DNA from: Labrys monachus
GTDB lineage: Bacteria; Pseudomonadota; Alphaproteobacteria; Rhizobiales; Labraceae
Assembly: GCF_030814655.1 (NCBI RefSeq)
Contig: NZ_JAUSVK010000001.1
Span: forward strand, 3,975,001-4,039,000
Reading direction: 5' to 3'
Length of the DNA stretch: 64,000 nt
Shown: piece after piece, positions 19,503 through 46,044 of the stretch
How the letters are laid out: every line of letters starts with the position of its first letter
Position numbering within the stretch: the stretch's first letter is position 1
The notes under the pieces: generated by a model
Seen by the model: the letters and a program-made list of their open reading frames with translations, nothing else
What the model was told of the DNA's origin: nothing
Databases searched by the model: none
Program-made: the position numbers and the translations under genes

Positions 19503-19555
19503 TTATTTTCACGACCGATCGAGCCGTCCGGCCAGGGCCGGACGGCGACTCGCCG

Positions 19556-28076: not shown

Positions 28077-28284
28077 AAGCGGGTCGGTCCTCGCTGTGGC
28101 GTGACGGATGGGCCCGGGACACGCGATAAACCGGCACGGTCGACCTGTCGTCGAGGGCCGGGATCCGCGGAGCCTTCCCGAATCAACCGGGGCGCGTGTC
28201 CGCTGGCTCTGGTCTGCCCGAGCGGCTTGGCGCGCTGATGGCGACGGCGTGGTTTTCCGGTGGCCATCGTCTTGGAACTTCCCT

Positions 28285-28309
28285 GGAACTTCCCGGCGGG
28301 ATGCGCGTT
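28285..28309 (+). promoter_or_regulatory. EcfG (general stress sigma) type promoter of ku
   Basis: GGAAC-N16-CGTT, exact match to the alphaproteobacterial general stress consensus, ending 27 bp before the ku ATG. The expected transcript start would leave a short leader with GGAG. The -35 lies in a direct repeat TGGAACTTCCC (28273 and 28284). Confidence 0.65.
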
Positions 28310-28336
28310 CCCGCCGGACTGTTCCCGGAGATTCCG

Positions 28337-32037: not shown

Positions 32038-32132
32038 GGCGTTCCGGAACTCCGCGGCCGGCGATGGCCGGATATTGTCTCGCGCAGGGCCTTGGTCCAA
32101 TAGCAGGCAACGCAATCAGGAAGGCCTCGACG

Positions 32133-32915
32133 ATGACGACGATCGATATCAATTGCGACATGGGCGAGAGCTTCGGTGCCTACACCATCGGCGCCGACGC
32201 CGAATTGCTGCGCATCGTCAGTTCCGCCAACATCGCCTGCGGCTTCCATGCGGGCGATCCCAACGTCATGGACGCCACGCTGCGGCTCGCCGCCGAGAAC
32301 GGCGTCGCCGCCGGAGCCCATCCCGGCTTCATGGACCTCTACGGCTTCGGGCGCCGCCAGATCCGCGGCGAGAGCCCGGCCGATATCGAGCGGCAGATCA
32401 TCTACCAGATCGGCGCGCTCCAGGCGCTCGCCCGTGCCGCCGGGAGCCGGCTCGCCCATGTCAAGTCGCACGGATCGCTCGGCAACATGGCGGCGGAGGA
32501 TCCCGACCTCGCTATGGCCTATGCCCGCGCCGTCAAGGCCGCCGACCCCGACCTCATCCTGGTGGTGATGCCGGGCGCCGAGACGGAAAAGGCGGGCGAG
32601 CGCCTCGGCCTGCGGATGGCGCGCGAGATCTATGCCGATCGCGCCTATGCGGAGAACGGCAACCTCGTCTCGCGCAAGCTGCCGGGGGCCGTCATCCACG
32701 ATCCCGAACACGCGGCGAGCCGGGTGATCGAGATGGTGAAGAGCCAGTCGATCATCACCGTCTCGGGCGAACGGCGTCAGGCGAGGATCGACAGCGTGTG
32801 CGTGCACGGCGACACGCCGGGTGCACCGGCGGTGGCAGCGCTGGTGCGCCGGCGCCTCGAGGAAGCCGGCATCGCCATCGCGCCGATGGCCCAAGTGATC
32901 GAGACGGCCGTCTGA
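32133..32915 (+). CDS. pxpA: 5-oxoprolinase subunit A (LamB/YcsF family)
   Basis: Third subunit of 5-oxoprolinase, 260 residues from ATG 32133. The LamB/YcsF signature IDINCDMGESFGAY opens the protein, followed by SANIACGFHAGDP, GAHPGFMDLYGFGRR and HVKSHGSLGNMA. It lies divergently from pxpBC; in many genomes pxpA-pxpB-pxpC form one operon, so here the three subunits come from two transcripts sharing one 95-bp control region. Converges with the M20 hydrolase with 2 bp between stops. Confidence 0.94.
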   Translation: MTTIDINCDMGESFGAYTIGADAELLRIVSSANIACGFHAGDPNVMDATLRLAAENGVAAGAHPGFMDLYGFGRRQIRGESPADIERQIIYQIGALQALARAAGSRLAHVKSHGSLGNMAAEDPDLAMAYARAVKAADPDLILVVMPGAETEKAGERLGLRMAREIYADRAYAENGNLVSRKLPGAVIHDPEHAASRVIEMVKSQSIITVSGERRQARIDSVCVHGDTPGAPAVAALVRRRLEEAGIAIAPMAQVIETAV

Positions 32916-32917
32916 GC

Positions 32918-34180
32918 TCACGGCTCACCGCCGAGCACGCGCGCCAGCAGGGTGGCGGCGGCGGCGAAGTCCTCCATCCGCATCGCCTCGTCCGGATTGT
33001 GGCTGCCGTTCTGGTTGCGGATGAAGATCATCGCCGCCGGCACGCCGGCATGGGCGAAGGTGGCGGCGTCGTGGCCGGCGCCGCTCGGCATGGTCAGCGT
33101 GGGGATGCCGGATGCCTGCGCCGCCGCCTCGATCGCGGCGCGCAGCCGCCGGTCCATGAGCGCCGGCGTGCTGCCGGTGCGGTCGCCGAACGCGAAGCGG
33201 ACGCCGCGCCGCCGCTCGATCTCGCCCGCCGTCTCCATCAGAATCGCGTGCAGGCGGTCGAGCAGGTCCTGACGGTCGCTGCGGACGTCGAGGCAGAAGC
33301 GGACCTCTCCCGGCACCTTGCTGAAGGCATGCATGGAAGGATCGGTGGCGACCTCGCCGAAGGTGATGGTCAACTGGTCGCCGGCGGCGTCCATCGCCGC
33401 CCAGCGCCGGTCGAGTTCCATGGCGAGATCGGCGAACGCCATCACCGCGTCCTGCCGGTGGCCGCGCGGCACGGCGCCGGAATGGCCGTAATTGCCGAAG
33501 CAGACGCCGCGGCGATAGCGGAAGCTGCCGGTGATGCCGGTGACGAGGCCTACCGGAACGCCCTCCCCTTCCAGCCTCGGGCCCTGCTCGATATGGAGTT
33601 CGATGAAGCCGTGGATGGCGCCGGGACGAAGATGCGCCTGGCCGGCCCTCACCGCCTCCGGATCGAAGCCGAGAGCGGCCATATGCGCGGCGAGGCTGCG
33701 GCCGGTATCGACCCGCGGCAGATCGAGCGTCGCGGCGTCGAGGCGCCCGAAGGCGGCCCGGCTGCCGATATAGGAGACCGGAAACCAGGTGCTCTCCTCG
33801 GCGCGGATCGCCATCACGGTGATCGTGCGGCGCGGGGCGAGGCCCGCGCGCTTCAGGCCCGCGATAGCGGCGAGGCCGGCGAGGACGCCCGCCGCGCCGT
33901 CAAAATTGCCGCCATGCGGCACGGTGTCGAGATGGGAGCCGACGATCCATGGATGGAGCGCGGCATCGCTCCCCGCCAGCGTCATGTAGAGGTTGCCGGC
34001 GGCGTCCGTGGCGCAGGACAGGCCGAGCGCCTCGGCCTCGGCGCGGACGAGGCGATGAGCGCGCTCCTCGCCCTCGCCATAGGCGTCCCGGGTCATGCCC
34101 GGCCCGGTTTCGTTCATTGCCTCCAGAGCGGCGAACAGGCGGGTGGCCAGCGCGATGTCGGCTTGGGGTGCAATCGTCAT
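32918..34180 (-). CDS. Zn-dependent M20 amidohydrolase (allantoate amidohydrolase / N-carbamoyl-L-amino acid hydrolase family)
   Basis: 420-residue dimetal hydrolase that cleaves ureido or amide bonds. Metal ligands: His and Asp in GSHLDTVPHGGNFDGAAG, Glu pair in RAEESTWFP, His in IELHIEQGP and a late GHDAATFAHAG. Together these define the allantoate amidohydrolase / beta-ureidopropionase / carbamoylase subfamily; the true substrate is not determined. It overlaps the upstream dehydrogenase gene by 4 bp (ATGA), so both are co-translated. Family products include ammonia, CO2 and an amino acid, which fits the nitrogen-catabolic neighbourhood. Confidence 0.88.
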   Translation of the reverse strand: MTIAPQADIALATRLFAALEAMNETGPGMTRDAYGEGEERAHRLVRAEAEALGLSCATDAAGNLYMTLAGSDAALHPWIVGSHLDTVPHGGNFDGAAGVLAGLAAIAGLKRAGLAPRRTITVMAIRAEESTWFPVSYIGSRAAFGRLDAATLDLPRVDTGRSLAAHMAALGFDPEAVRAGQAHLRPGAIHGFIELHIEQGPRLEGEGVPVGLVTGITGSFRYRRGVCFGNYGHSGAVPRGHRQDAVMAFADLAMELDRRWAAMDAAGDQLTITFGEVATDPSMHAFSKVPGEVRFCLDVRSDRQDLLDRLHAILMETAGEIERRRGVRFAFGDRTGSTPALMDRRLRAAIEAAAQASGIPTLTMPSGAGHDAATFAHAGVPAAMIFIRNQNGSHNPDEAMRMEDFAAAATLLARVLGGEP

Positions 34181-35139
34181 GCGGCAACTCCCCGGCGAAT
34201 GGACCAGGTGGTGGGATTGACCATGTGCGGCGGCCGGCGCCCCTGGACGACGTCGAGGACGCCCTGTGCGACGGCGATCGCCATGCGGCGCAGGCTGGCC
34301 TCCGTCGAGGCGGCGGAATGGGGCGTCAGCACGACATTGGGCAGCGCCAGCAGCGGATAGTCGGCCGGCATCGCCTCGCTGGCGAAGACGTCGAGCCCGG
34401 CGCCGGCGATGGTACCGGCGGCGAGCGCCTCTATCAAAGCGGGCTCGTCGATCACCGCGCCGCGCCCGGTGTTGATCAGGAAGGCCGAGCGGCGCATCAG
34501 CCCCAGTTCGCGCCGGCCGATCAGGCCGACGGTCTGCGCCGTCGCCGGCAGATGCAGGGAGACGACGTCGCTCGCCGCCAGCAATTCATCCAGCGTAGTG
34601 ACCCTCTCGATGCCGGGAAGGCCGACATCGTCGCTGCGCCGCGACAGGGCAAGGACGCGCATGCCGAGCGCATGCGCCAGGGCAGCCGTGGCGCGGCCGA
34701 TATTGCCCATGCCGACGATGCCGAAGGTCAGGCCCTGCAATTCGACCAGGCCGCCGCGGAACTTGAAGGCGAAGTCGCCCTGGCGGGTGGCCTGGTCGGA
34801 GGCGGGAATGCGCTTGGCCAGCGCAAACATCAGCGCGATTGCGTGCTCGGCGACGGACAGCGTGTTGGTGCCCGGCGTGTTGACGACGACGATGCCCGAG
34901 CGATCGGCATGAACGATGTCGACGGCGTCGGTGCCGACGCCATGCACGCCGACGACGCGCAGGCGCGGACAGGCGTCCATCTGCTGCGCCGTGAAGCCGG
35001 CGTTGCGGGTGATCGCGGCGACGCAGTCCGCCCAATCGGCAGGCTGCGCCTCCTGGGGCGTGAACGGGCGCAAGCCCGCCTCCCGCAGGAGCGCCGGTCC
35101 GGCGTCATGGATCGGCTGGACGATCAGGCAGCTTTCCAT
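34177..35139 (-). CDS. D-isomer-specific 2-hydroxyacid dehydrogenase
   Basis: NAD(P)-dependent 2-oxoacid/2-hydroxyacid oxidoreductase, 320 residues from ATG at 35139. The dinucleotide motif is GIVGMGNIGRATA; catalytic Arg is in LINTGRGAVIDEPAL, Glu in the segment before GLDVFASE, and His in TPHSAAST. Relatives include phosphoglycerate dehydrogenase and hydroxypyruvate/glyoxylate reductases. The open frame extends 31 codons further but into the putative operator at 35188-35197, which makes the internal ATG more likely. First gene of a two-gene operon with the M20 amidohydrolase. Confidence 0.88.
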   Translation of the reverse strand: MESCLIVQPIHDAGPALLREAGLRPFTPQEAQPADWADCVAAITRNAGFTAQQMDACPRLRVVGVHGVGTDAVDIVHADRSGIVVVNTPGTNTLSVAEHAIALMFALAKRIPASDQATRQGDFAFKFRGGLVELQGLTFGIVGMGNIGRATAALAHALGMRVLALSRRSDDVGLPGIERVTTLDELLAASDVVSLHLPATAQTVGLIGRRELGLMRRSAFLINTGRGAVIDEPALIEALAAGTIAGAGLDVFASEAMPADYPLLALPNVVLTPHSAASTEASLRRMAIAVAQGVLDVVQGRRPPHMVNPTTWSIRRGVAA

Positions 35140-35187
35140 GGCGACGTCCAAATCAGGTGTTGCATAAACATTCCAATTGAATTCTAG

Positions 35188-35197
35188 TGGTATACCA
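35188..35197. promoter_or_regulatory. GntR/FCD-type operator in divergent promoter
   Basis: TGGTATACCA perfect palindrome, of the TGGT-AT-ACCA form bound by FadR/FCD-class GntR regulators. Sits between the dehydrogenase operon and the DUF1989-ureohydrolase-GntR operon; the GntR at 36915 is the obvious candidate. Confidence 0.5.
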
Positions 35198-35324
35198 ACG
35201 GTAGGCAAGAGGCTGGCGATCACAAATCGCACATGCCGGACGTTTCAGTGCCCGAGGAGCCGATGGTAAGCCGCTTTCGAGATGATTCCACCCTGGACTG
35301 CCGCGAAGCCGTGGATTTGCGGCT

Positions 35325-35960
35325 GTGAGCGTTTCCCTCGGTGAGACGGCGGACCTCCGCCTGAAAGCTTCGCACGGCCTCGCGATCTCCCTGCGGCGGG
35401 GAGAGAGGCTGCGCATCGAGAATCTGTTCGGCACGCAGGTCGTGGACACCTGGCTCCTGGCCGGCGACGACCCGTTCGAGCATTCCTCGATGGACCATAC
35501 GCGATCGGTCAACAGCAACATCTTCCTGGAAAAGGAAATGGTGGTGGCCAGCAGCCTGAGGCGGCCGATGGCGAGGCTGGTGGAGGATACCTCACCCGGC
35601 CGGCACGACACGCTGCTGTGCCCCTGCAATGCGGCCATCTATCGCGAATTGCGCTGCGAGGGCTATCATCGCAGCTGCACCGACAATTTCCACGAGGCGC
35701 TCGGCGCCGTGGGCATCACCCTGCCGTTCACGCCGGCTTCGCTCAACCTGTTCATGAACGTGCCGGTCGCGGCCGACGGTTCGGTCGAGCGCGTGGCGCC
35801 GGCATCGAGGCCCGGCGACGCCGTCGTGCTGCAGGCCGAAATGGACGTGACCGTCGTGCTCTCGGCCTGTCCGCAGGATGTCACCCCGATCAACGGCACC
35901 GAACGAACGCCGCGTGATATCGGGCTCGCGATCCGGCCGGCTCGCGGAGCGCCGCTATGA
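35325..35960 (+). CDS. DUF1989 (urea carboxylase-associated) protein, paralogue 1
   Basis: 211 residues, start GTG at 35325. Conserved DUF1989 motifs include DTWLLAGDDPFEHSSMDHTR, RRPMARLVEDTSPGRHDT, and the cysteine-rich LCPCNAAIY and CTDNFHEAL, followed by PFTPASLNLFMN and SACPQD. DUF1989 members CgiA and CgiB form carboxyguanidine deiminase in the guanidine carboxylase route; whether this paralogue shares that activity is unknown. The Cys/His pairs suggest a metal site. Its stop overlaps the start of the ureohydrolase gene by 4 bp, which implies a coupled role. Confidence 0.85.
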   Translation: MSVSLGETADLRLKASHGLAISLRRGERLRIENLFGTQVVDTWLLAGDDPFEHSSMDHTRSVNSNIFLEKEMVVASSLRRPMARLVEDTSPGRHDTLLCPCNAAIYRELRCEGYHRSCTDNFHEALGAVGITLPFTPASLNLFMNVPVAADGSVERVAPASRPGDAVVLQAEMDVTVVLSACPQDVTPINGTERTPRDIGLAIRPARGAPL

Positions 35961-36904
35961 ACGTCCTGCCCGTCAATTCGCTCGACACGCCGCGCTTCTG
36001 CGGCGTCCCGACCTTCATGCGCCTGCCGCAGGCGACCTCGCTCCACGGCCTCGATGCCGCGGTGATCGGCCTGCCCTCCGATTCCGGCGCCCCCTTCCGC
36101 ACCGGCGCCCGCTTCGGCCCGAATGCCGTGCGGGCGATGTCGGTCATGCTGCGGCCGATCAACCCCTATCGCGGCAACATCAACGTGTTCGAGAAGCTCG
36201 CCTGCGCCGATGTCGGCGACGCTTCGGTGGTGCCGGGCTATGAGGTGGAATCGCTGGATCGGATCGAGGAATCGGTCGCGGCCCTGGTGACGGCCGGCAT
36301 CGTGCCCTTCGGCATCGGCGGCGACCATTCCATCACGCTGGCCGAGTTGCGGGCGGTTGCCGCCAGGCACGGGCCGCTGGCCCTCGTGCACTTCGATTCG
36401 CACAGCGACACCTGGGACAAATATTTCGGCGGCAAGGCCTACAGCGCCGGCACGCCGTTCCGCCGGGCGGTGGAAGAGGGCATCGTCACCCCCGGGCAGT
36501 CGATCCAGATCGGCCTGCGCGGCTCGCTCTTCCAGGCGACCGACATCAGCCAGTCGCTCGACCTCGGCTATGACGTCGTGACGACGGATGAGATTTTCGA
36601 CATCGGCTTCAAGGCCCTGGCGGACCGTATCGCCGCCCGCACGGCGGGCCGGCCGGTCTTTCTCACCTTCGACATGGATTTCGTCGACCCGGCGGCGGCT
36701 CCCGCCGTGCAGACGCCGGAAGCGGGCGGCCCCTCGGCCCGCGAGACCCTCCAGATCCTGCGCCTGCTGCACGGGCTCGACCTCGTCGGCTGCGACGTGG
36801 TGGAGGCCAATCCGCTCTATGACGGCCCCGGCCAGATCACCGCGCTGCTGGCGGCCACTGTGCTGGCGGAACTGATGGCGCTGCTCGCATCGGTCCGCGG
36901 CTGA
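35957..36904 (+). CDS. Ureohydrolase (arginase/agmatinase family)
   Basis: Dimanganese hydrolase releasing urea from a guanidino substrate. 315 residues. Metal motifs: GGDHSITLAELR, DSHSDTWDKYF (instead of the common DAHxD), and TFDMDFVDPAAAPAVQTPE. The overall pattern fits agmatinase, guanidinobutyrase, guanidinopropionase or the related guanidine hydrolases; substrate cannot be chosen from sequence. Translationally coupled to the DUF1989 gene and followed by its likely GntR regulator and a DapA-family lyase. Confidence 0.9.
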   Translation: MNVLPVNSLDTPRFCGVPTFMRLPQATSLHGLDAAVIGLPSDSGAPFRTGARFGPNAVRAMSVMLRPINPYRGNINVFEKLACADVGDASVVPGYEVESLDRIEESVAALVTAGIVPFGIGGDHSITLAELRAVAARHGPLALVHFDSHSDTWDKYFGGKAYSAGTPFRRAVEEGIVTPGQSIQIGLRGSLFQATDISQSLDLGYDVVTTDEIFDIGFKALADRIAARTAGRPVFLTFDMDFVDPAAAPAVQTPEAGGPSARETLQILRLLHGLDLVGCDVVEANPLYDGPGQITALLAATVLAELMALLASVRG

Positions 36905-36914
36905 GGACAACCCC

Positions 36915-37586
36915 ATGACGATGGCAAGCTACGCCGCCGACCTGCAGGAGGAAAAGGACCGCAGCCTCAGCCGGCTCGCCTATGATAGCGTGCTCGACAT
37001 GCTGATCCGGCACGAATTGCCGCTGAACACGGTGCTGCACGAGCGGCGGCTGGCCGAGCGCCTCAATATTTCCCGCACACCGGTGCGCGAGGCGCTGAAC
37101 CGGCTGGAAAGCGAGGGCTTCGTCTCGCGCATGCCGGGCCGCGTCCTCGTGGTGAAGAACCTCTCCACGCGCGAACTGATCGAGACCCTGCATGTGAGGG
37201 GCCTCCTGGAGGCGGAAGCCGCCGCCCTCGCGGCGGGACGCGTGCCCGCGGCGGAGCTCGATAGGCTGGAGGCCGATATCCGAGCCCTGCTGGCGACGCT
37301 GGAACCCAAGCCGGAAGACGATTGGGAGGTCGACAGCCGCGTGCACGGCACGATCACCCGCCATGGCGGCAATGCCCTGCTGGCGCGCCTCGTCGAAGGC
37401 TTTCGCGTCAAGACCCACATGTTCAATCTCAAACGCGTGCCGGAGCGCTTCGCCATCGGCCATCGCGAGCATCTCGCCATCATCGACGCCCTGCGCCGTG
37501 CGGACGGCCAGGCCGCCCGCAAGGGGATCGAAACCCACATCGAGAACGTCAAGCAGAGCGTCATCCAGGCGCTCAGCCAGATTTAG
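36915..37586 (+). CDS. GntR-family regulator, FCD/FadR class
   Basis: 223 residues. The N-terminal winged helix has LNISRTPVREALNRLESEGFVSR around residues 45-70. The C-terminal all-helical FCD ligand-binding domain carries the His/Asp metal-ligand pattern (HGTITRHGGN, HLAIIDALR, HIENVKQS). Encoded inside the operon it most likely controls, 10 bp after the ureohydrolase gene. A palindrome in the promoter region (35188-35197) is a good candidate for its operator. Confidence 0.9.
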   Translation: MTMASYAADLQEEKDRSLSRLAYDSVLDMLIRHELPLNTVLHERRLAERLNISRTPVREALNRLESEGFVSRMPGRVLVVKNLSTRELIETLHVRGLLEAEAAALAAGRVPAAELDRLEADIRALLATLEPKPEDDWEVDSRVHGTITRHGGNALLARLVEGFRVKTHMFNLKRVPERFAIGHREHLAIIDALRRADGQAARKGIETHIENVKQSVIQALSQI

Positions 37587-37598
37587 GGAAAACACATC

Positions 37599-38531
37599 AT
37601 GGCTCCGACCAGGATCGACGCAAACACCAGCGGTGTCTACATCATCTCGCCCACGCCCTTCACCGACCAGGGCGAGATCGACTTCGCCAGCACCGACCGG
37701 ATGATCGAGTTCTTCATCGAGAAGGGCGTGACGGGCCTCACCATCCTGGGCGTGCTCGGCGAAGCGCCGAAGCTCTCCTCGTCGGAGGCGCAGGCCTTCC
37801 TGAAGCATGTGATGCAGCGCGTGGCCGGCCGCAAGCCGGTGGTGGTGGGCGCCAGCAACCCCGGCACCGACAATCTCGTGCGCTTCGCCAAGGAGGCGAT
37901 GGACCTCGGCGCCGCCGGGCTGATGATCGCCCCGCTCTCCGGCCTGAAGAACGACGACCAGGTCTATGCCTATTGGGAAGGCCTGTTCTCGCGCCTCGGC
38001 GCGGATGTCCCCGTCTGCTATCAGGATTATCCGCAGACGACGACGGTGTTCAGCTCGGTGGCGGTGCTCAACCGCATGATCGCCGACTTCCCGAATTTCG
38101 TCATGCTCAAGCATGAGGAAGGCTCCGGCCTGCCGAAGATCACCAAGCTGCGCGAGCATGCCGAGCAGGGCAAGGGGCGGCGCATCAGCATCCTCGTCGG
38201 CAATGGCGGCCTCTATCTGCCGCAGGAACTGCGCCGCGGCGTCGACGGCGCCATGACGGGCTTCGCCTATCCGGAGATGCTGGTCGGCGTCTGCGAGCAT
38301 TTCGCGGCGGGCCGCCCCGAAGAGGGCGAGGACCTGTTCGACATCTATCTGCCGATCCTCCGGCACGAGCAGCAGGCCGGCTTCGGCCTCGCCATCCGCA
38401 AGGAGATCCTGCGCCGCCGCGGCGCCATGGCCTCCTCGGCGATCCGCCATCCCGGCCCGAAGCTCTCCGCCCGCGACCACCAGGAGCTCGACGAGCTGAT
38501 GGCCCGCCTCGAGCGCAAGCTGAAGGGCTGA
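37599..38531 (+). CDS. Dihydrodipicolinate synthase/N-acetylneuraminate lyase family protein
   Basis: Class I aldolase-fold lyase, 310 residues. N-terminal VYIISPTPFTDQGEIDF; GVLGEAPKLSS in the oxyacid-binding region; VVVGASNPGTDNLVRFAKEA; Schiff-base Lys in FVMLKHEEGSG; and a substrate tyrosine in CYQDYPQ. Because it is in a catabolic operon it is more likely a 2-oxoacid aldolase/dehydratase than a lysine-biosynthetic DapA. The substrate is unknown. It is the last gene before a palindromic repeat. Confidence 0.85.
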   Translation: MAPTRIDANTSGVYIISPTPFTDQGEIDFASTDRMIEFFIEKGVTGLTILGVLGEAPKLSSSEAQAFLKHVMQRVAGRKPVVVGASNPGTDNLVRFAKEAMDLGAAGLMIAPLSGLKNDDQVYAYWEGLFSRLGADVPVCYQDYPQTTTVFSSVAVLNRMIADFPNFVMLKHEEGSGLPKITKLREHAEQGKGRRISILVGNGGLYLPQELRRGVDGAMTGFAYPEMLVGVCEHFAAGRPEEGEDLFDIYLPILRHEQQAGFGLAIRKEILRRRGAMASSAIRHPGPKLSARDHQELDELMARLERKLKG

Positions 38532-38600
38532 CCGGAGCGCCGGCCTCTCCTGACGGGCGCTGATAAAGGCGATCTTTCGCCGACGGCGGTCAAAATACGG

Positions 38601-38626
38601 TCATTGCCGGGCCTGTCCCGGCAATC
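38601..38626. repeat. Intergenic palindromic repeat between convergent genes
   Basis: TCATTGCCGGG-CCTGT-CCCGGCAATC, a type widespread between genes of Rhizobiales. Located between the stops of the DapA-family gene and the M20 peptidase. Confidence 0.75.
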
Positions 38627-38651
38627 ACGCCGGTCCGCTTGGCCGGCGCCC

Positions 38652-39788
38652 CTATGGGTGCCGCAGCATGTCGAGCGCGAGGCTCCGGTAGATGCCGGCC
38701 GCCGCCTCCAGTTCGGCGAGCGGCACGAACTCGTCGGGCTTGTGCGCGACGGCAAGGTCGCCCGGGCCGAGCACGATGCCCAGGGCGCCGATGGCGTTGA
38801 AATGCACGAGATCGCAGGCGCCGAGCAGGCCCTCGACCCCGCCCGGGGCGGCGCCATGCGCCTCCGCCTGCCGCAAGGCCGCCCGCACGAAGGCATTGTC
38901 CGCCGGCGTCTCGGTCGGCCCGCCCGTGGTCTCGCGCCATTCGACCACCTCGATCGCCGTGCCGTGCTCGCGATGCACCCGCGCGAACAGATCTTCCAGC
39001 CCGGCCCTGCAGGCCTGCGGCGTCTCGCCCGGGACCATGCGCCGGTCGAGCAGCATGTCGCAGCTGTCCGGCACGACATTGTCGGCCTGTCCCCCCGCGA
39101 TCCGCGTCACGGTGAGGCTGGCAGGGCCGCAGAGCGGATGGGTGAACCGCGCGATCCGCGCGGCCTCGGCCTCGACCGCCGCCAGGAGATGCGCAGCCCC
39201 GAACACGGCGTTGACGCCGAGATGCGGCGCGCCCGAATGGGCGGTGCGGCCCCGCACGCGCACCAGCGGGCGCAGGCTTCCCTTATGGGCCGTCACCACC
39301 CTGTTCGAGGTCGGCTCGCCGATGACGGCATAATCGATAGGCGGTGCCGCGGCGGCGAAATGCTTGGCACCGGAACTCGACACCTCCTCGTCGCCGACGA
39401 AGACCAGCAGCAGCGTGCCGCTCCATGCCTCCCGCTGCCGGGCGAGCTGCAGGCCGGCCGTCATCATCGCGGCCAACGAGCCCTTGGCGTCGCAGGCGCC
39501 CCGCGCCTGGATACGGCCGTCCCGATACACCGCGCGGAACGGGTCGCTGCTCCATCCCTCGCCTGCCGGCACGACGTCGATATGGGTGTTGAGGGCGAAG
39601 ACCGGCCCCTCCCCGTTCGACAGCCGCGCGACGATATTGGCGTGGTTGGGCCGATAATCCTGGTAGGCGACGGCGAAACCCGCTCCGGCGAGCACGTCGC
39701 CGATGAAGCGGGCGCAGGCGACGCCGTCGCCCGGCGGATTCTGGGTGTCGAAGGCGACGAGTCGTTCGAGCAGTCCCGCGGGTTGCAT
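38652..39788 (-). CDS. M20 metallopeptidase, ArgE/DapE-type deacetylase
   Basis: 378 residues. Metal sites: His/Asp in NTHIDVVPAGEGW, Asp in RGACDAKGSLAAM, Glu pair in VGDEEVSSSGAKH, Glu in VIGEPTSNRV and a late His near AVAHKPDEF. The closest group is acetylornithine deacetylase / succinyl-diaminopimelate desuccinylase. In this catabolic setting it may remove an acyl or peptide group from an amino acid substrate. Downstream of the FAH-family gene on the same strand with a 31-bp gap. Confidence 0.85.
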   Translation of the reverse strand: MQPAGLLERLVAFDTQNPPGDGVACARFIGDVLAGAGFAVAYQDYRPNHANIVARLSNGEGPVFALNTHIDVVPAGEGWSSDPFRAVYRDGRIQARGACDAKGSLAAMMTAGLQLARQREAWSGTLLLVFVGDEEVSSSGAKHFAAAAPPIDYAVIGEPTSNRVVTAHKGSLRPLVRVRGRTAHSGAPHLGVNAVFGAAHLLAAVEAEAARIARFTHPLCGPASLTVTRIAGGQADNVVPDSCDMLLDRRMVPGETPQACRAGLEDLFARVHREHGTAIEVVEWRETTGGPTETPADNAFVRAALRQAEAHGAAPGGVEGLLGACDLVHFNAIGALGIVLGPGDLAVAHKPDEFVPLAELEAAAGIYRSLALDMLRHP

Positions 39789-39819
39789 GCGCTCCGGTCC
39801 GGTTGAGAAGACGCGCCGC

Positions 39820-40512
39820 CTAGCGGCGGATCGTCAGCGACAGGTTCGGCAGCCCGTCGATCTCGGCAAGGATCTCGTCGCCCGGACGGATCGCACCGAC
39901 CCCTTCCGGCGTGCCGGTGAAGCAGAGGTCGCCCGGCTGCAGGGCGATCGACTTCGAGATGATCGACAACGTCTCGGCGACGTTCCAGATCATGTCGGAG
40001 AGGTCGGATTCCTGCTTCACTTGCCCGTTGATGCTCAGCCGGATGGTGCCGCTGGCCGGATGGCCGATGTCGGAAGCGCGCCGCAGCGGGCCGCAGGGCG
40101 CCGAGCGGTCGAAGGCCTTGCCCCAGTCCCAGGGGCGGCCGGCCGCTTTGGCCTTGCCCTGCAGGTCGCGACGGGTGAGATCGATGCCGACGCCATAGCC
40201 GAAGACGATGTCGAGCGCCTGTTCGGGAGAAAGGTCGATGCCTTCCTTGCCGACGGCGACGACGAGCTCAACTTCGTGGTGCAGGTCGGAAGTGTCGGGC
40301 GGATAGGGAATGGTCGAGCCGCTGTCCACCACGGCGTCGCCCGGCTTGGAGAAGAAGAAGGGCGGCTCGCGGTCGGGATCGCCGCCCATCTCGCGGGCAT
40401 GCGCCGCATAATTGCGGCCGACGCAAAAGATGCGGCGCACCGGGAAGCGCGCCGTCTCTCCATCGACGGCGACCGACGGAACGGCCGGCGGGGTGATAAC
40501 GAATTCAGTCAT
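39820..40512 (-). CDS. Fumarylacetoacetate hydrolase (FAH) family protein
   Basis: 230 residues from ATG 40512. FAH core: FCVGRNYAAHAREMGG, PFFFSKPGDAVV, the metal-binding DLHHEVELVVAVG and the LCFTGTPEGVG segment near the end. Family reactions are fumarylpyruvate or acylpyruvate hydrolysis and 2-oxo-3-deoxy acid dehydration. In this operon (M24 enzyme, FAH, M20) it may act on an oxo-acid product, but this is inference. The next gene upstream ends 26 bp before. Confidence 0.88.
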   Translation of the reverse strand: MTEFVITPPAVPSVAVDGETARFPVRRIFCVGRNYAAHAREMGGDPDREPPFFFSKPGDAVVDSGSTIPYPPDTSDLHHEVELVVAVGKEGIDLSPEQALDIVFGYGVGIDLTRRDLQGKAKAAGRPWDWGKAFDRSAPCGPLRRASDIGHPASGTIRLSINGQVKQESDLSDMIWNVAETLSIISKSIALQPGDLCFTGTPEGVGAIRPGDEILAEIDGLPNLSLTIRR

Positions 40513-40538
40513 GGAAACTCCTGGTCGGCCGAACGAGG

Positions 40539-41759
40539 TCAATCGATCTGGAACAATCGGCGGGGAAGGCGGGACAGGCAGCGGGCGCCGCTCTGGGTGA
40601 CGACGGCTGTCTCGCTGACCCCGATAGTGAATTCGCCATAGGCGCGCAAGGTCGTCGGGATGTGGAAGACCATGCCGGCCTCCAGGGGCCGCGTGACGTT
40701 GCTGTAGAGGCTGAGCACGTCGCCCTCCCCCCAATCGGGCGCGAAGGCCACGCCCATGCTGTAGCCGGTGCGTTTGCGATAGGCCGCGGCGTAGCCGTGA
40801 CGGTCGATCACCTCGGCAGCGGCCTGATGGACATCGGCGCAGGTCGAGCCGGGGCGGAGCGCATCGAGCGCGGCCGCCAGCCCCGCCTGTGCGGCATCGA
40901 GCATGCGGCGCGCCGTGTCGGGCATCGGGCCCAGCCAGACCGGGCGGAGGATGGCGGCGTGGTAGCGGTTGTGACAGCCGGCGAGTTCCAGGAACAGCCC
41001 GTCGCCCCGTTCGAGCCGCCGCCGGCGCCAGGTCGCGTGCGGAACGCCGCTGCGCGGCCCGGAGGACACCAGCGGCTCCATGCCGAGATATTCGGACCCA
41101 GCGGCGACCGCCGCCTGCAGCATGGCGGCGGCGATGGCGTTCTCCGTCGAGCCGGCGCGAACGGCGGCGATGCCGGCTTCGAGGCCCGCATCGGCATAGG
41201 CCGCCGCCTGCTCGATGAAGGCGACCTCGAGGGCCGACTTGACCATGCGCAATTCCGCCAGCAGGCCGGATGCATCGCGCCAATCCGGGAGTGCCGCCGC
41301 CACTGCGGCGAACAAGGCCGGCAGCAGCCCGGTGCTGCGCGTCTCGACGCCGATCCGGCGGCCGCGCCAGCCGAGCCCGTCGACCAGCGCGAGCGCCGCC
41401 TGGGCCGGATCGTCATCGTCGCCGTAGAGCCTGATGTCGTCGAGCCGGGTGTTGAAGCGGGTGTTCATCTCCTCCAGGCGCCGCACGAGGAGGACGGGAT
41501 CGCGGTCCAGCGGCACGAACAGGGCCTGGAAGGCGAAGTGGCCCGGCGTCTGGCGGCCGGTGAGCCAGAAGACGGTTTCCGGTCCGGTCAGCATCACGCC
41601 GTCGAAACCGGACATCTCCATGGCGCCCCGAAGCCGGTCCAGGCGGCCCGCCAGTTCCGCCGGCGGAAAGGCGCATTCCGAGCCGCGGCCCGACGCGATA
41701 CCGCCGAGGGTTTCATCCGAAAGAGGCAGCATGGAGGCTTCCAGTCGCATTGCAGGCAT
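40539..41759 (-). CDS. M24 family creatinase/ectoine hydrolase (DoeA)-like enzyme
   Basis: Pita-bread-fold hydrolase, 406 residues from ATG 41759; ATG at 41750 or 41732 are alternatives. N-terminal creatinase_N domain (FDGVMLTGPETVFWLTG), then the M24 domain. Typical peptidase metal ligands are missing: the usual Asp-Asp segment reads FLELAGCHNRYHAAILRPVW, and the C-terminal part (RTGYSMGVAFAPDWGE, GMVFHIPTTL, GVSETAVV) matches the pattern of ectoine hydrolase DoeA and creatinase rather than Xaa-Pro peptidase. It is the first gene of an operon with FAH and M20 genes, opposite GntR. Confidence 0.78.
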   Translation of the reverse strand: MPAMRLEASMLPLSDETLGGIASGRGSECAFPPAELAGRLDRLRGAMEMSGFDGVMLTGPETVFWLTGRQTPGHFAFQALFVPLDRDPVLLVRRLEEMNTRFNTRLDDIRLYGDDDDPAQAALALVDGLGWRGRRIGVETRSTGLLPALFAAVAAALPDWRDASGLLAELRMVKSALEVAFIEQAAAYADAGLEAGIAAVRAGSTENAIAAAMLQAAVAAGSEYLGMEPLVSSGPRSGVPHATWRRRRLERGDGLFLELAGCHNRYHAAILRPVWLGPMPDTARRMLDAAQAGLAAALDALRPGSTCADVHQAAAEVIDRHGYAAAYRKRTGYSMGVAFAPDWGEGDVLSLYSNVTRPLEAGMVFHIPTTLRAYGEFTIGVSETAVVTQSGARCLSRLPRRLFQID

Positions 41760-41773
41760 TGACCGACCGGCAT

Positions 41774-41802
41774 ATTGTATCGATCGTAAATTCCAATACA
41801 AT
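41774..41802. promoter_or_regulatory. Inverted repeat operator, GntR/M24 divergent promoter
   Basis: ATTGTAT-N15-ATACAAT. The core TTGTAT-N15-ATACAA has the same geometry as the site at 42924-42950, which suggests one regulator binds both. Confidence 0.55.
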
Positions 41803-41860
41803 GATTTTCAGCCGATGGGCATCCGGCCGGCGCCGGGATCCAGATGGCTTGGATGAGGTG

Positions 41861-42871
41861 ATGACGCGCAGACCCGACCCTGCGGCGGCCGAGGGGGCCG
41901 ATCGCGCCGACACCGCGCCTGCCGACGGAACGGCAGCGGACGGCAAGACCCGGAACGACAGGGCTTCAGCCAAGCCGGCGCTGGACGGCGCCCCGACGCC
42001 GCTGGTGCGGCGGCTGCTGAGCTACATCGTCAGCGAAGGGCTCGCGGAGGGCGCGCACCTCGCCGAGCAGACACTGGCCGATGCCCTGCAGGTGTCGCGG
42101 ACGCCGATCCGCAAGGCGCTGATGGACCTCGCGCGCGAGGGCATCGTGCAGAGCGAGGCCCGGCGCGGCTATTTCCTGGCCCGGCCGGCCCGCTCCCTGT
42201 TCGCGGCGAGCCTCGATTTCCCCGCTTTGACGGAAGACGACATCTTCGACCGCATCGCCATCGACCATCTCGACGGGGAACTGCCGGACCTGTTCTCCAA
42301 GCGCGACGTCGTCACGCGCTACGACGTCAGCACGCGGCTGGCGGAACGGGCGATCCAGGCGCTGGTGGACGAAAAGGTCATCGTCCAGGACCAGCCCGGA
42401 AGCTGGAAGTTCAACCCCTTCATGCTGACGGCGGAGGCGAGCATCGCCAGCTATGCCTACCGCCTGGCGATCGAGCCCAACATCCTGCTGCTGCCGAGCT
42501 TCGAGGTGCGCCGCGACCTGATCCGAGCCTGCCGCGACGAGCATATCCGCTTCCTGACGCTCCGGCCGGCCGAGCGGACGGCGCGTCTGGCCTTCAAGGT
42601 CGACGTCTCCTTCCACGAGAGCATCGCCACCTGCGGCGGAAACCATTTCTTCCATTCGAGCGTCGTCCAGCACAACCGCATGCGGCAGCTGCTCGAATAT
42701 CGCGACTCCTTCGACGAGGAGCGCATGCTGGTCTGGCTCAAGGAGCACCTCGACATCATGGAGGCGGTCGCCGCCAGGGATCTCGCCGAGGCCTCGGACC
42801 TTATGCGCACCCATCTCACCAACGCGTTGCGGCATCGCGAGGCGAATCTCGCGCGCCATCGGCGCCGATAG
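41861..42871 (+). CDS. GntR-family regulator with extended architecture
   Basis: 336 residues from ATG at 41861, about 100 longer than usual FCD regulators. A low-complexity Ala/Asp leader (to residue ~45) precedes the winged helix (QVSRTPIRKALMDLAREGIVQ). Residues ~130-175 (FSKRDVVTRYDVSTRLAERAIQALVDEKVIVQ) look like a second winged helix. The C-terminal FCD domain has HESIATCGGNHFF and HLDIMEAVAARDLAEA. Divergent from the M24 operon and upstream of the DUF1989-ABC operon. Confidence 0.82.
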   Translation: MTRRPDPAAAEGADRADTAPADGTAADGKTRNDRASAKPALDGAPTPLVRRLLSYIVSEGLAEGAHLAEQTLADALQVSRTPIRKALMDLAREGIVQSEARRGYFLARPARSLFAASLDFPALTEDDIFDRIAIDHLDGELPDLFSKRDVVTRYDVSTRLAERAIQALVDEKVIVQDQPGSWKFNPFMLTAEASIASYAYRLAIEPNILLLPSFEVRRDLIRACRDEHIRFLTLRPAERTARLAFKVDVSFHESIATCGGNHFFHSSVVQHNRMRQLLEYRDSFDEERMLVWLKEHLDIMEAVAARDLAEASDLMRTHLTNALRHREANLARHRRR

Positions 42872-42923
42872 GCCGGAAGGGCGAGGCTGCACAAAAAAGA
42901 CGCAGAGCGCCACCCAAACGATC

Positions 42924-42950
42924 TTGTACCGAAATTACAAATGCGTACAA
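42924..42950. promoter_or_regulatory. Inverted repeat operator, DUF1989-ABC operon promoter
   Basis: TTGTAC-N15-GTACAA, same spacing as the repeat at 41774-41802. It also contains an overlapping TTGTA-N7-TACAA palindrome (42924-42940). Lies 76-102 bp upstream of the second DUF1989 gene. Confidence 0.55.
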
Positions 42951-43025
42951 TCCTGACGATATAGAACAGCCCTGCACCACCCTCGCCCCCGATGGTCGGG
43001 CCGCAACATCACGGACCGGAACAGC

Positions 43026-43637
43026 ATGACCCAACCCACGCCCATCGTCGATTTCGTGCCGGCCCGCTACGGCAAGGCGATCCCTGTCTCCGCCGGCCAG
43101 ACGCTGACGATCATCAGCAAGGAAGGGTCGCAGGTCCTCGACCTCTGGGCGCTCGGCCGCGACGACCCGATGGAATACATGTCGATGGAGCATACGCGCT
43201 CCAAGAACAGCAAGGTGATGCTGTCGGTCGGCGACAGCTATGTCTCGATCCGGCGCCGGCCGATGTTCACCGTGGTCGAAGACACCTCGCCCGGCATCCA
43301 CGATACGCTGCTATGCGCCTGCAACAGCGCCATCTATGAGGAATCCGGCTGCACCGAGTACCACCGCAACTGCTCGGACAATTTCCACGAGGCCCTCGCC
43401 GAGATCGGCGTCCAGTTCCCGTTCACGCCCGGCCCGCTCAACGTGTTCATGAACATCCCGATCGAGGAGGACCACACCATCCGCCGCCTGCCGCCGGCGA
43501 CCAAGCCGGGCGACTACATCAAGCTGAGGGCGGACATGGACCTCGTGGCCGTCATCTCGGCCTGCCCCCAGGACATCTCGGTGATCAACGGCGCCGAAAA
43601 GACCCCGCGCGACGTGCATTACGTCGTGGAGGGCTGA
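43026..43637 (+). CDS. DUF1989 (urea carboxylase-associated) protein, paralogue 2
   Basis: 203 residues. Shares all conserved blocks with the paralogue at 35325: SMEHTRSKNS, RRPMFTVVEDTSPGIHDT, LCACNSAIY, CSDNFHEAL, PFTPGPLNVFMN, SACPQDISVINGAEKTPRD. Over the core the two proteins are roughly half identical by eye. The gene leads an operon with an amino-acid-type ABC transporter and ends 2 bp before the ATPase gene, so it probably acts on the imported compound. Deiminase activity like that of CgiAB is possible but unproven. Confidence 0.85.
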   Translation: MTQPTPIVDFVPARYGKAIPVSAGQTLTIISKEGSQVLDLWALGRDDPMEYMSMEHTRSKNSKVMLSVGDSYVSIRRRPMFTVVEDTSPGIHDTLLCACNSAIYEESGCTEYHRNCSDNFHEALAEIGVQFPFTPGPLNVFMNIPIEEDHTIRRLPPATKPGDYIKLRADMDLVAVISACPQDISVINGAEKTPRDVHYVVEG

Positions 43638-43639
43638 GC

Positions 43640-44431
43640 ATGCCCGCGCCGGATGCGCCGATCCTCGAGATCAAGGCCCTGCGCAAGCATTACGGCACCG
43701 CCGAGGTCCTGAAGGGCATCTCGCTGACCGTGGCCCCGCGGGAAGTGGTGGCGATCGTCGGCGCCAGCGGATCCGGCAAGAGCACGTTCCTGCGCTGCAT
43801 CAACCTCCTGGAAACGCCGTCCTCCGGCACGCTCGCCTTCGAGAACCTCTCCTTCGACTTCGCCACCCCGGAACGACAATGGCGCCGGGAGGCGAGTCTG
43901 CGCCAGCTGAGGACCGGCATCGGCATGGTGTTCCAGAGCTATAATCTGTGGCCGCACAGGACGGTGCTCGAAAATGTCACGGAAGCCCCGATCCGGGTGA
44001 AGAACGTGCCGCGCGCCGAGGCGATCGAGCAGGCCCACCATCTTCTCGGCCGCATCGGGCTCTACGACAAGCGCGACGCCTACCCGTCCCGGCTTTCGGG
44101 CGGCCAGCAGCAGCGCGTCGCCGTCGCCAGGGCGCTGGCCATGAAGCCGAGGGCGATGCTGTTCGACGAGGTGACGTCGGCGCTCGACCCGGAACTCGTG
44201 GGCGAGGTGCTGGACCTGATGGCGGCGCTCGCGGCCGACGGGATGACCATGCTGGTGGTCACCCACGAGATCGCCTTCGCCCGCGACGTCAGCACCCGGA
44301 CCATCTTCGTCGATGGCGGCCTGATCTCCGAGGAGGGACCGTCGCGCCAGGTCCTGACCAATCCGGACAACGAGCGGACACGCCAGTTCCTGCGCCGCGT
44401 CCTGCACCAACCGATCGCGGCGGCCCCATGA
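43640..44431 (+). CDS. Polar amino acid ABC transporter, ATP-binding protein
   Basis: 263 residues, PAAT (HisP/GlnQ) class. Walker A GASGSGKST, Q-loop GMVFQSYNLWPHRTVLENV, signature LSGGQQQRVAVARAL, Walker B MLFDEVTSALDPE and switch His in VVTHEIAFARD. A short insertion around residues 75-95 (ERQWRREASLRQLR) is common in this subfamily. Co-transcribed with the DUF1989 gene upstream and the permease 16 bp downstream. Confidence 0.95.
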   Translation: MPAPDAPILEIKALRKHYGTAEVLKGISLTVAPREVVAIVGASGSGKSTFLRCINLLETPSSGTLAFENLSFDFATPERQWRREASLRQLRTGIGMVFQSYNLWPHRTVLENVTEAPIRVKNVPRAEAIEQAHHLLGRIGLYDKRDAYPSRLSGGQQQRVAVARALAMKPRAMLFDEVTSALDPELVGEVLDLMAALAADGMTMLVVTHEIAFARDVSTRTIFVDGGLISEEGPSRQVLTNPDNERTRQFLRRVLHQPIAAAP

Positions 44432-44447
44432 AACGGCGGAGCATCGC

Positions 44448-45134
44448 ATGAGCTATCTCCAGGCACTTCCAGGCCGGGCCGTCGACTGGTGGCTCAGCGT
44501 CGCGGACTATATCCCGGACATGCTGCACTCCTGCCTCGTCGTCGTGGAGATCACGCTCGTCGTCATCCTTCTGAGCTGGATCTGCGGGCTCGCGGCGGCG
44601 CTCGGCAAGATGTCGCCGCTCGCCGTGCTGCGCTGGCCCAGCCAGTTCTATATCTGGTTCATCCGCGGCACACCGACGCTGATCCAGATCTTCATCGTCT
44701 ATTTCGGCATTCCCCAGTTCGGGGTGCGCATGTCGCCCTTCGTGGCGGGGTCCCTGGCGCTCGGCATCGGGAGCGGCGCCTATGTCGCCGAGATCATCCG
44801 CTCCGGCCTCCTCGCCATTCCCAAGGGACAGATGGAATCGACGACGGCGATCGGCATGAGCCGACGGCAGAGCCTGCAGCACATCATCCTGCCCCAGGTC
44901 GTCCGCATCATCGTGCCGGCACTGACGAACGAAGCCGTGTCGACGCTCAAGAACACCTCGCTCCTGTCGGTGATCACGATCATCGAACTCACCCTGCAAT
45001 CGCAGATCATCATCTCCGCGACCTTCCGGCCGTTCGATTTCTACATCATCGCGGCCTTCATGTACCTCTTCATGACGACGGCTCTCATGGCGGCGGCAGG
45101 CTGGTTCGAACGCCATCTGGCGCTGCGCTACTGA
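44448..45134 (+). CDS. Polar amino acid ABC transporter, permease
   Basis: 228 residues with about five transmembrane segments. The N-terminal VVVEITLVVILLSWICGLAA, FYIWFIRGTPTLIQIFIVYF and the EAA-type loop GMSRRQSLQHIILPQVVRIIVPAL are characteristic of HisM/GlnP permeases. Only one permease gene is present, so the transporter is likely a homodimer at the membrane. Confidence 0.94.
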   Translation: MSYLQALPGRAVDWWLSVADYIPDMLHSCLVVVEITLVVILLSWICGLAAALGKMSPLAVLRWPSQFYIWFIRGTPTLIQIFIVYFGIPQFGVRMSPFVAGSLALGIGSGAYVAEIIRSGLLAIPKGQMESTTAIGMSRRQSLQHIILPQVVRIIVPALTNEAVSTLKNTSLLSVITIIELTLQSQIIISATFRPFDFYIIAAFMYLFMTTALMAAAGWFERHLALRY

Positions 45135-45234
45135 CGTCGACGGAACTCATGCCGGCGCCGGAGAGAGGCCCCGAAGGGCCCGAGGCGACGCCGGACGGCC
45201 TTGAAGACGACCCACCAGAGAAGGAACCAGAAAC

Positions 45235-46044
45235 ATGTCCATACCCCTCCTGCCGACCCGGCGCCTCGCCGCCATGGCGATCGCCGCCGCCTTCCTCCTG
45301 AGCACCTTCGGCGCCGGCGCCAAGGCGGCCGACCTCGAGCTGATCACCCCCGGCGAGCTCAGCGCCGCGACGGAGGGCACCTACCCGCCCTTCAGCATGT
45401 ACGGCACCGACGGCAAGCTCGACGGCCTCGAGATCCGCGTCATGGGCGAGATCGCCAGGCGCCTCGGCCTCACCTACCGGCCCGTCATCATCAAATGGGA
45501 CTCGCTGCTGATCGGCCTGAAGGCCGACCAGTACGACACCGCCAGCGACGCGATGGACATCACGCCGGAACGCCAGAAGCAGGTGACCTTCGTCGACGGC
45601 TGGCTGCAGTCCGGCGGCCGCCTGGTGGTCAAGGCGGATTCGCCGATCAAGTCCGGCGCCGACATGAAGGGCAAGACCATCGGCGTGCTCGTCGCCTCGA
45701 CCTGGGAGAAGCTCGCGACCGGCCTCGGCGCCAATGTGAAGACCTACAAGGCCGAGACCGACGGCATCCAGGACCTCGTCAACGGCAATGTCGACGGCGT
45801 GATCACCGATTCGATTTCCGCCGCCTACACGATCAAGGCGTCCCACCTGCCGCTCAGGATGACCGACGACTATCTCAGCCAGATCCAGAAGGGCTTTCCG
45901 ATCAAGCTCGGCAAGCCCAATCTGGTGAAGGCGATGAACAAGGCGCTGGCCGACATGATCGCCGACGGAACCTATGCCAAGCTGACATCCGCGCTCATCG
46001 GCTACAGCCCGGCGCCGAAGGATCCGATCCGCTCCCAGCTCTGA
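45235..46044 (+). CDS. Polar amino acid ABC transporter, periplasmic substrate-binding protein
   Basis: 269 residues with a signal peptide (LAAMAIAAAFLLSTFGAGAKA). SBP family 3 fold: EGTYPPFSMYGTDGKLDGLEIRV at the ligand site, then DSLLIGLKADQYDTASDAMDITPERQ. The first domain ends in a segment with Asp/Ser ligands typical for amino-acid binding. The substrate is unknown; the coupled DUF1989 gene suggests a guanidino or other nitrogen compound. The gene is separated from the permease by 100 bp, and its stop lies within an 18-bp tandem repeat. Confidence 0.92.
   Translation: MSIPLLPTRRLAAMAIAAAFLLSTFGAGAKAADLELITPGELSAATEGTYPPFSMYGTDGKLDGLEIRVMGEIARRLGLTYRPVIIKWDSLLIGLKADQYDTASDAMDITPERQKQVTFVDGWLQSGGRLVVKADSPIKSGADMKGKTIGVLVASTWEKLATGLGANVKTYKAETDGIQDLVNGNVDGVITDSISAAYTIKASHLPLRMTDDYLSQIQKGFPIKLGKPNLVKAMNKALADMIADGTYAKLTSALIGYSPAPKDPIRSQL

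Follow-up and report, generated by a model that had tools for sequence, protein, structure and literature searches.

A conserved proteobacterial gene cluster with DUF1989 proteins, PxpABC and an amino-acid-type importer, proposed to degrade a guanidino- or amidine-type compound

The locus in Labrys monachus

The window analysed here is a stretch of 64,000 nucleotides from Labrys monachus (contig NZ_JAUSVK010000001.1, positions 3,975,001 to 4,039,000 of the forward strand). It contains two genes for DUF1989 proteins, embedded in a set of hydrolase, regulator and importer genes that appears, from its recurrence in other genera, to form one catabolic cluster. The whole unit occupies window positions 30240-46044 and reaches further left than the interval 35140..46044, for which the initial annotation had proposed a guanidino/ureido-compound pathway in two GntR modules. 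The genes named for that interval are all present according to profile matches and open reading frames (ORFs), including the 4-bp overlap (ATGA) between the frames of DUF1989-1 and the ureohydrolase. The carbamoylase-type amidohydrolase also named there exists as an M20 protein, but sits outside the interval, at 32918-34180 on the minus strand. The features are the following.

30240..31292, minus strand: PxpC-type subunit of an ATP-dependent lactam hydrolase, carboxyltransferase domain (PF02626, 311.8 bits; cluster hidden Markov model, HMM)
31285..32115, minus strand: PxpB-type subunit (TIGR00370, 173.2 bits; cut-off 145.55)
32133..32915, plus strand: PxpA-type subunit (NF003814, 366.3 bits; cut-off 226)
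32918..34180, minus strand: M20 hydantoinase/carbamoylase-type hydrolase with an altered motif (TIGR01879, 286 bits; cut-off 204)
34177..35232, minus strand: D-2-hydroxyacid dehydrogenase family protein (PF02826, 191.2 bits)
35188..35197, no strand: palindrome TGGTATACCA, candidate GntR operator, between the dehydrogenase and DUF1989-1
35325..35960, plus strand: DUF1989-1, CxC subfamily (PF09347, 169 bits, E 2.2e-49)
35957..36904, plus strand: arginase-family ureohydrolase (PF00491, 273.4 bits; best solved match 3-guanidinopropionase 3nip)
36915..37586, plus strand: GntR1 regulator, FCD type (PF00392 and PF07729)
37599..38531, plus strand: DapA-family lyase (PF00701; best solved match 3dz1, 275.8 bits)
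38652..39788, minus strand: M20 ArgE/DapE-type deacylase (TIGR01910, 227.9 bits; cut-off 217.6)
39820..about 40581, minus strand: FAH-family hydrolase (PF01557)
40539..about 41729, minus strand: M24 enzyme like the ectoine hydrolase DoeA (PF00557 and PF01321; best solved match DoeA 6twj)
about 41750..42871, plus strand: GntR2 regulator, FCD type (PF00392 and PF07729)
43026..43637, plus strand: DUF1989-2, CxC subfamily, second clade (PF09347, 172.5 bits, E 2.3e-50)
43640..44431, plus strand: amino-acid-type ABC ATPase (cluster HMM)
44448..45134, plus strand: ABC permease (nearest models EhuC (ectoine) and cystine; TIGR03004, 165.4 bits, under the cut-off of 196.95)
45235..46044, plus strand: periplasmic amino-acid-type binding protein (nearest models cystine and Lys/Arg/Orn binding, both under cut-off)

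The start of pxpA near 32133 is taken from the HMM match, the ORF itself opening at 32064. The dehydrogenase and M20 genes overlap by 4 bp, and the true start of the dehydrogenase is probably near 35139. The start of GntR2 is uncertain, with the HMM match beginning at 41945. The initial annotation held that all of the hydrolase families act on C-N bonds. This is not so, as the FAH and DapA families perform C-C bond chemistry.

Conservation of the cluster

The genomes of 84,980 species were scanned with two peptide patterns derived from alignment A1, which comprises seven close DUF1989 proteins. The scan yielded 64 loci with the same DUF1989 subfamily in named alpha- and gammaproteobacterial records, the hosts including Rhizobium, Agrobacterium, Shinella, Mesorhizobium, Cereibacter, Ancylobacter, Methylocapsa, Pseudomonas, Rouxiella, Erwinia and Pantoea. 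The cluster is common to soil- and plant-associated bacteria. Gene families were assigned by in-house HMMs, not curated models, and counts out of 54 refer to the loci of at least 20 kb, the ten shorter ones being left out. Aligned rows are not independent, since some species are represented by both a plasmid and a genome copy.

DUF1989 and the ABC ATPase are found in 54/54 loci, the permease in 53/54 and the binding protein in 52/54. PxpA is encoded in 47/54, PxpB and PxpC in 46/54 each, the dehydrogenase in 45/54, the carbamoylase-type M20 enzyme in 37/54 and the ureohydrolase in 29/54. An M24 gene of the window type occurs in 32/54 loci and a second M24 in 30/54. Ureohydrolase and either M24 type stand together in 13 loci, ureohydrolase without M24 in 16, M24 without ureohydrolase in 22, and neither in 3. 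Less frequent partners are a glyoxalase-fold VOC protein (23/54; 27/64 over all related loci), a D-amino-acid transaminase (21/54; 25/64), DapA (11/54; 12/64) and a class-I aminotransferase (11/54). The ArgE-type M20 gene occurs in 2/54 (2/64) loci and FAH in 1/54 (1/64), plus the contig of a congener (L016), so both are regarded as accessories of this window.

Gene order points in the same direction as gene content. In the congener G004, locus L015 (G004:C24) reads pxpA-pxpC-pxpB, followed by the divergent run DUF1989-ABC ATPase-permease-ureohydrolase-binding protein-GntR1-DapA-SDR-dehydrogenase-M20. Both proposed modules are thus contained in one gene run, in which DUF1989 occurs once. The order on annotated Shinella and Agrobacterium plasmids is pxpB-pxpC-GntR-dehydrogenase-M20-GntR-M24-VOC-M24-DUF1989-ABC, and the 4-bp overlap of DUF1989 and ureohydrolase recurs in loci L096, L097 and L101. 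The sample of the host family consists of five genomes of one genus, among which a close ureohydrolase match (77% identical) is present in G004 only; the other three congeners lack a close match, with best values of 44-46% for DUF1989 and 39-43% for ureohydrolase.

The same gene set in dozens of loci of other genera is more than would be expected by chance, and it is well supported by this comparative evidence that the window genes are parts of one catabolic cluster serving one pathway. The layout in two GntR modules is not supported. The initial annotation had regarded homologous loci in which the modules never co-occur as speaking against a connection; the opposite was found, DUF1989-ABC genes and a ureohydrolase sharing the locus in all 29 cases counted above as well as in the merged cluster of L015.

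For comparison, a PF09347 search in 142 genomes of the host class gave 67 matches in 37 genomes. From these, 51 control places were taken, after exclusion of the three matches of the genome itself and of eight frames longer than 700 aa (probably trimethylamine N-oxide (TMAO) demethylases), with five adjacent pairs counted as one place each. A ureohydrolase was found at 1/51 places and PxpA at 0/51. Several control contigs are short, so that neighbours may be missed, and one place (L164) has no annotated gene. The near absence of the partner genes indicates that this gene company belongs to the present DUF1989 subfamily. A general rule that DUF1989 accompanies ureohydrolases was rejected on the same count, the link being confined to certain subfamilies.

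A shared palindrome

A search of the window for TGGTATACCA with at most one mismatch gave a single match, at 35188-35197, and no site before DUF1989-2. Among the related loci, those with a match to the GntR1 HMM carry the palindrome, with the same tolerance, in the intergenic region upstream of a cluster gene in 20/21 cases (29 sites in 460,751 bases). The corresponding number for loci without GntR1 is 11/46 (16 sites in 873,979 bases), and the control survey loci contain 5 sites in 794,063 bases. Exact copies of TGGTATACCA occur in five loci. The genes downstream of the palindrome are pxpB/pxpA, dehydrogenase/DUF1989, the class-I aminotransferase, DapA and GntR1 itself. The shared palindrome is thus a second line of evidence, beside gene neighbourhood, linking PxpABC and the aminotransferase with the DUF1989 genes. 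It is suggested that the cluster genes form one regulon under TGGTATACCA, the candidate operator of GntR1. The genome itself contains 4 exact sites, and a reversed control pattern gives 3; on its own, the 10-mer therefore does not serve as a genome-wide marker.

The DUF1989 proteins

To our knowledge, only two activities are known in the DUF1989 family, which is little characterised. Both window copies keep the three zinc cysteines as well as the His and Asp of TMAO demethylase (Tdm), as judged by alignment to 3oru and 9q59, the zinc ligands of Tdm being those named in PMC12560246. Alignment A1 shows no variation at these residues, and 69 to 73 of 75 aligned rows have them. In contrast to TMAO demethylase, the window proteins have no GcvT domain. 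The genome, a single 6.92-Mb contig, holds three DUF1989 matches, namely the two window copies and a 773-aa frame at 2540099, which is probably a TMAO demethylase judging by its length and lies away from the cluster.

Both window copies contain an extra cysteine two residues before the first zinc cysteine. This CxC motif is found in 71/75 aligned rows, a frequency partly guaranteed by one of the two search patterns, which contains CxC; the independent part is its absence from the survey, where C-x-C-[NS] occurs in 0/55 control DUF1989 domains. In the tree, DUF1989-1 groups with proteins of Pseudomonas, Rouxiella and Erwinia, with Mesorhizobium soli one step out, while DUF1989-2 groups with those of L088, Methylocapsa and Acidisoma. 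A recent local tandem duplication was rejected, as the copies fall in two clades of one subfamily.

Carboxyguanidine deiminase (CgiA/CgiB, also UAAP1/UAAP2) likewise belongs to DUF1989 and yields allophanate and ammonium, according to PMC11271267 and PMC12186494. It resembles the present proteins in family and in their proposed role with guanidino nitrogen. The cluster differs from it by the lack of a guanidine carboxylase, the CxC motif and the partners PxpABC, M20 and ureohydrolase. DUF1989-1, the copy scanned with the UAAP models, shows distant similarity to both, with 117.4 bits against a cut-off of 284.7 for TIGR03424 and 84.6 against 205.95 for TIGR03425. The initial observation that no urea or guanidine carboxylase is present holds and extends to the whole genome, where 16 partial matches to the urea carboxylase model TIGR02712 include none above cut-off. 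An Rfam scan of the window at gathering scores returned tRNA only and no guanidine riboswitch. Hence, the suggestion of a carboxyguanidine deiminase with both window DUF1989 proteins as subunits and the carboxylase elsewhere in the genome was rejected and is given a probability close to nil. Of the two options in the initial annotation, a different role for DUF1989 agrees with these results, and a partner carboxylase elsewhere does not.

Ureohydrolase and M24 enzyme

The window ureohydrolase and 35/36 cluster members (window, L015 and 34 loci) keep all six His/Asp metal ligands; in L060, the only exception, the open frame diverges ahead of the last two ligands. A loop reads Ser-Ala-Gly in 36/36 cluster members and x-His-Gly in five paralogues from the same genome and in 3nip, 3nio and 1gq6. 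The missing His is the one we take to be His141 of arginase. The enzyme thus shares family, metal ligands and best solved matches with guanidinopropionase and guanidinobutyrase (3nip, 3nio), but not their loop. It scores narrowly under the agmatinase model TIGR01230 (173.0, cut-off 174.3), and with the loop His lost a simple agmatinase or arginase was rejected. The formimidoylglutamase HutG also lacks the His, with the loop [ST]SGTPF in 8/8 proteins compared with SAGT in the cluster, and an E-x-N-P motif present in 8/8 HutG proteins occurs in 20/36 cluster ureohydrolases. In contrast, the cluster enzyme is guanidinobutyrase-like overall and far under the HutG model TIGR01227 (104.8, cut-off 229.15). 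Among ureohydrolases beside other DUF1989 genes, the loop His is gone in Salipiger, Chelatococcus, a G004 locus and one of three in Mesorhizobium, while others keep it.

The M24 enzyme is of the creatinase-type family and nearest to DoeA, its best solved match. It reaches neither the DoeA cut-off (270.1 against 575) nor that of creatinase (180.7 against 613).

PxpABC and the M20 enzyme

PxpABC opens 5-oxoproline, with PxpB and PxpC hydrolysing ATP. All three subunits are encoded in the window; PxpA and PxpB exceed curated 5-oxoprolinase cut-offs and the PxpC domain is present (PF02626). A PxpA tree was computed from 29 of 32 matches (a 59-aa fragment and two matches lacking a locus were dropped) together with the copies of the genome itself and of Escherichia coli. 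It separates 15 copies located in clusters from 17 others, among them E. coli PxpA and additional copies of these genomes, on a branch with support 96/90. The support is 89/92 with 16 rows, when Oceanicella (L185) is included, and 63/85 without E. coli. In Oceanicella, PxpA and DUF1989 are on different contigs, but this PxpA adjoins the D-amino-acid transaminase, DapA, SDR and VOC families of the clusters, which indicates a split cluster. Rouxiella has a cluster-type PxpA in addition to one that is E. coli-like (72% identical). The cluster PxpABC therefore appears to be dedicated to this cluster, its PxpA forming a group apart from E. coli PxpA. Two more PxpA genes lie in the L. monachus genome, at about 182-192 kb and 4546-4550 kb, near biotin-carboxylase-like matches.

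In the M20 enzyme at 32918-34180, the Asn of the N-x-[VI]-P motif of 3n5f is replaced by Ser or Ala in 47/47 aligned cluster members, while the position is Asn in 3n5f and in two aligned plasmid M20 enzymes. This Asn presumably has a substrate role in N-carbamoyl-L-amino acid hydrolase. Furthermore, EES[VTA]WF stands in place of EEGxRF in 46/47 members. The cluster versions of PxpA, ureohydrolase, M20 and DUF1989 are thus sequence subtypes distinct from the characterised relatives compared.

Proposed pathway and alternatives

It is proposed, with a probability of roughly 40%, that the cluster serves the uptake and degradation of an amino-acid-like compound carrying a substituted or cyclised guanidine (or amidine). 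We infer the substrate, the reaction order and every substrate within that order from gene content and sequence similarity. The ABC importer would bring the compound into the cell. DUF1989 would then act on a creatinine-like cyclic acylguanidine, a 2-iminohydantoin, hydrolysing its C-N bond to give a hydantoin-like ureido ring. Carboxyguanidine and 2-iminohydantoin are both N-acylguanidines, and it is from the removal of the imino nitrogen of carboxyguanidine by a DUF1989 relative that this step is deduced. PxpABC would open the ureido ring with ATP, and the M20 enzyme would remove the carbamoyl group. Processing of the resulting amino or keto acid would fall to the 2-hydroxyacid dehydrogenase and, in loci that encode one, to a transaminase. 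On the guanidino form, open or cyclic, the ureohydrolase without the loop His and the M24 enzyme resembling DoeA may act as alternative hydrolases; the resemblance of M24 to a hydrolase of ectoine, a cyclic amidine, is counted in favour of this proposal. A guanidino/ureido pathway, as initially suggested, fits these findings, including a DUF1989 without guanidine carboxylase, though not in its two-module layout.

The proposed sequence of ring opening and carbamoyl hydrolysis follows a known logic. PMC8453981 and PMC8864220 describe an ATP-dependent hydantoinase, HyuAB, that opens hydantoins in Pseudomonas NS671, with subsequent carbamoyl removal by the carbamoylase HyuC, and a possible creatinine route via N-methylhydantoin to sarcosine. 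The likeness would be one of ATP-dependent ring opening before carbamoyl hydrolysis. The ring-opening enzyme of the cluster is non-homologous to HyuA/HyuB, so at most it works like it and is no member of that family. A more specific version, a creatinine-like route built from other enzyme families with DUF1989 as 2-iminohydantoin hydrolase and PxpABC as an unrecognised ATP-dependent hydantoinase, is conceivable but doubtful. Far less probable is that hydroimidazolones derived from arginine, for example the glycation product MG-H1, are the compounds consumed. There, DUF1989 would release ornithine and 5-methylhydantoin, PxpABC and M20 would yield D/L-alanine, and the route would end with transaminases and the 2-hydroxyacid dehydrogenase. 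The D-amino-acid transaminase and the glyoxalase-fold VOC protein fit this version. A literature search on MG-H1 and ergothioneine breakdown gave no matching pathway among the matches listed, judged by titles and abstract starts.

Several observations weigh against the proposed degradation of a cyclised guanidine. The ureohydrolase is missing from 25/54 and the M20 gene from 17/54 loci, and DapA, FAH and the ArgE-type M20 are left without explanation in the route. The M20 enzyme, without the Asn of 3n5f in any aligned member, may not take plain N-carbamoyl amino acids. The window palindrome alone is not beyond chance, shuffled sequences containing a mean of 0.13 matches with at most one mismatch and at least one match in 11/100. 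In addition, the ureohydrolase loop resembles that of formimidoylglutamase, which acts on an amidine, and PxpA and PxpB pass curated 5-oxoprolinase models, which makes a plain 5-oxoproline step possible.

The last two points each lead to a different substrate. If PxpABC is an ordinary 5-oxoprolinase, the compound may be a guanidino amino acid conjugated in a pyroglutamate- or opine-like manner, with PxpABC acting on the released 5-oxoproline or pyroglutamyl-type conjugate and DUF1989 and ureohydrolase on the guanidino part. The binding protein, weakly similar to binders of Lys/Arg/Orn and of nopaline, would suit such a conjugate. Against it stands the separate PxpA group, which coexists with an E. 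coli-like PxpA in Rouxiella, and the frequent company of a carbamoylase-type M20 gene is left unexplained; this reading is considered rather unlikely. An N-formimidoyl-type amidine, histidine- or ectoine-like, would turn the ureohydrolase into a formimidoyl hydrolase, let M24 open a cyclic amidine and make DUF1989 a formimino deiminase. The SAGTPF-type loop, the E-x-N-P motif, the DoeA-like M24 and the EhuC-like permease are all consistent with it. However, the score of the whole ureohydrolase under the HutG model and its nearest solved relatives, guanidinopropionase and guanidinobutyrase, argue otherwise, and neither HutI nor HutU is among the recognised window families, though neither was specifically searched for; this substrate is judged unlikely. 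Two unrelated adjoining regulons, each with its own DUF1989 and substrate, would account for two GntR genes, two DUF1989 clades and a palindrome before the first DUF1989 only. This is very improbable given the single-copy merged cluster of L015, the co-occurrence in many loci and the operator shared among relatives.

Other DUF1989 neighbourhoods and adjoining genes

Further arrangements of DUF1989 genes were observed. In two Agrobacterium genomes (L093, L095), two DUF1989 genes, a gene for a 1213-aa carboxylase-type protein and an amidase-type gene lie at about 13200-20140, less than 10 kb from the cluster. This looks like a guanidine carboxylase operon and is not counted as evidence for guanidine itself. 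A urea-carboxylase-type gene of more than 1100 aa adjoins a DUF1989 pair at 3/51 control places, with shorter matches at 3 more. Four DUF1989 genes with amino-acid ABC genes occur in L017 (8261-10902; G004:C3), one of them without the zinc cysteines, and three in L040 (4541-8654), one without two of the three, both as seen by eye; these cysteine-poor proteins are like pseudoenzyme partners. L032, L033 and L039 combine DUF1989 and an amino-acid ABC importer with ureohydrolases, two or three per locus, several of which lack the loop His, and constitute a second DUF1989-ureohydrolase lineage. Plasmids of Klebsiella and Caballeronia (L037, L044) carry an amino-acid ABC importer, an M20 hydrolase, DUF1989 and a cupin, the Caballeronia copy also having an agmatinase-type gene. 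On five alpha- and betaproteobacterial plasmids (L034, L035, L036, L038, L041), DUF1989 adjoins an amidase and a polysaccharide-deacetylase-family gene, another partnership of the ring-opening type.

In the window, two convergent Ku genes (PF02735) at 28196-29143 (plus strand) and 29198-30040 (minus strand) directly adjoin the cluster and are likely a non-homologous end joining pair. A class IV aminotransferase gene at 57340-58200 (minus strand), 11 kb from the cluster, fits the D-amino-acid transaminase family of the related clusters.

Significance

No description of the cluster was found in the literature under DUF1989, the annotation name or the gene combination, with limited coverage of subscription journals, and the same search gave no activity for this DUF1989 subfamily. 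The cluster combines known enzyme families in a conserved arrangement with subtype-specific motifs, a combination that was not found described. It is fixed across alpha- and gammaproteobacteria and comes with a recognisable operator and one importer, which provides a short gene list for testing a nitrogen-compound pathway. Furthermore, PxpABC proteins carrying a 5-oxoprolinase annotation may, in a cluster of this kind, have a different lactam or a hydantoin as their substrate.

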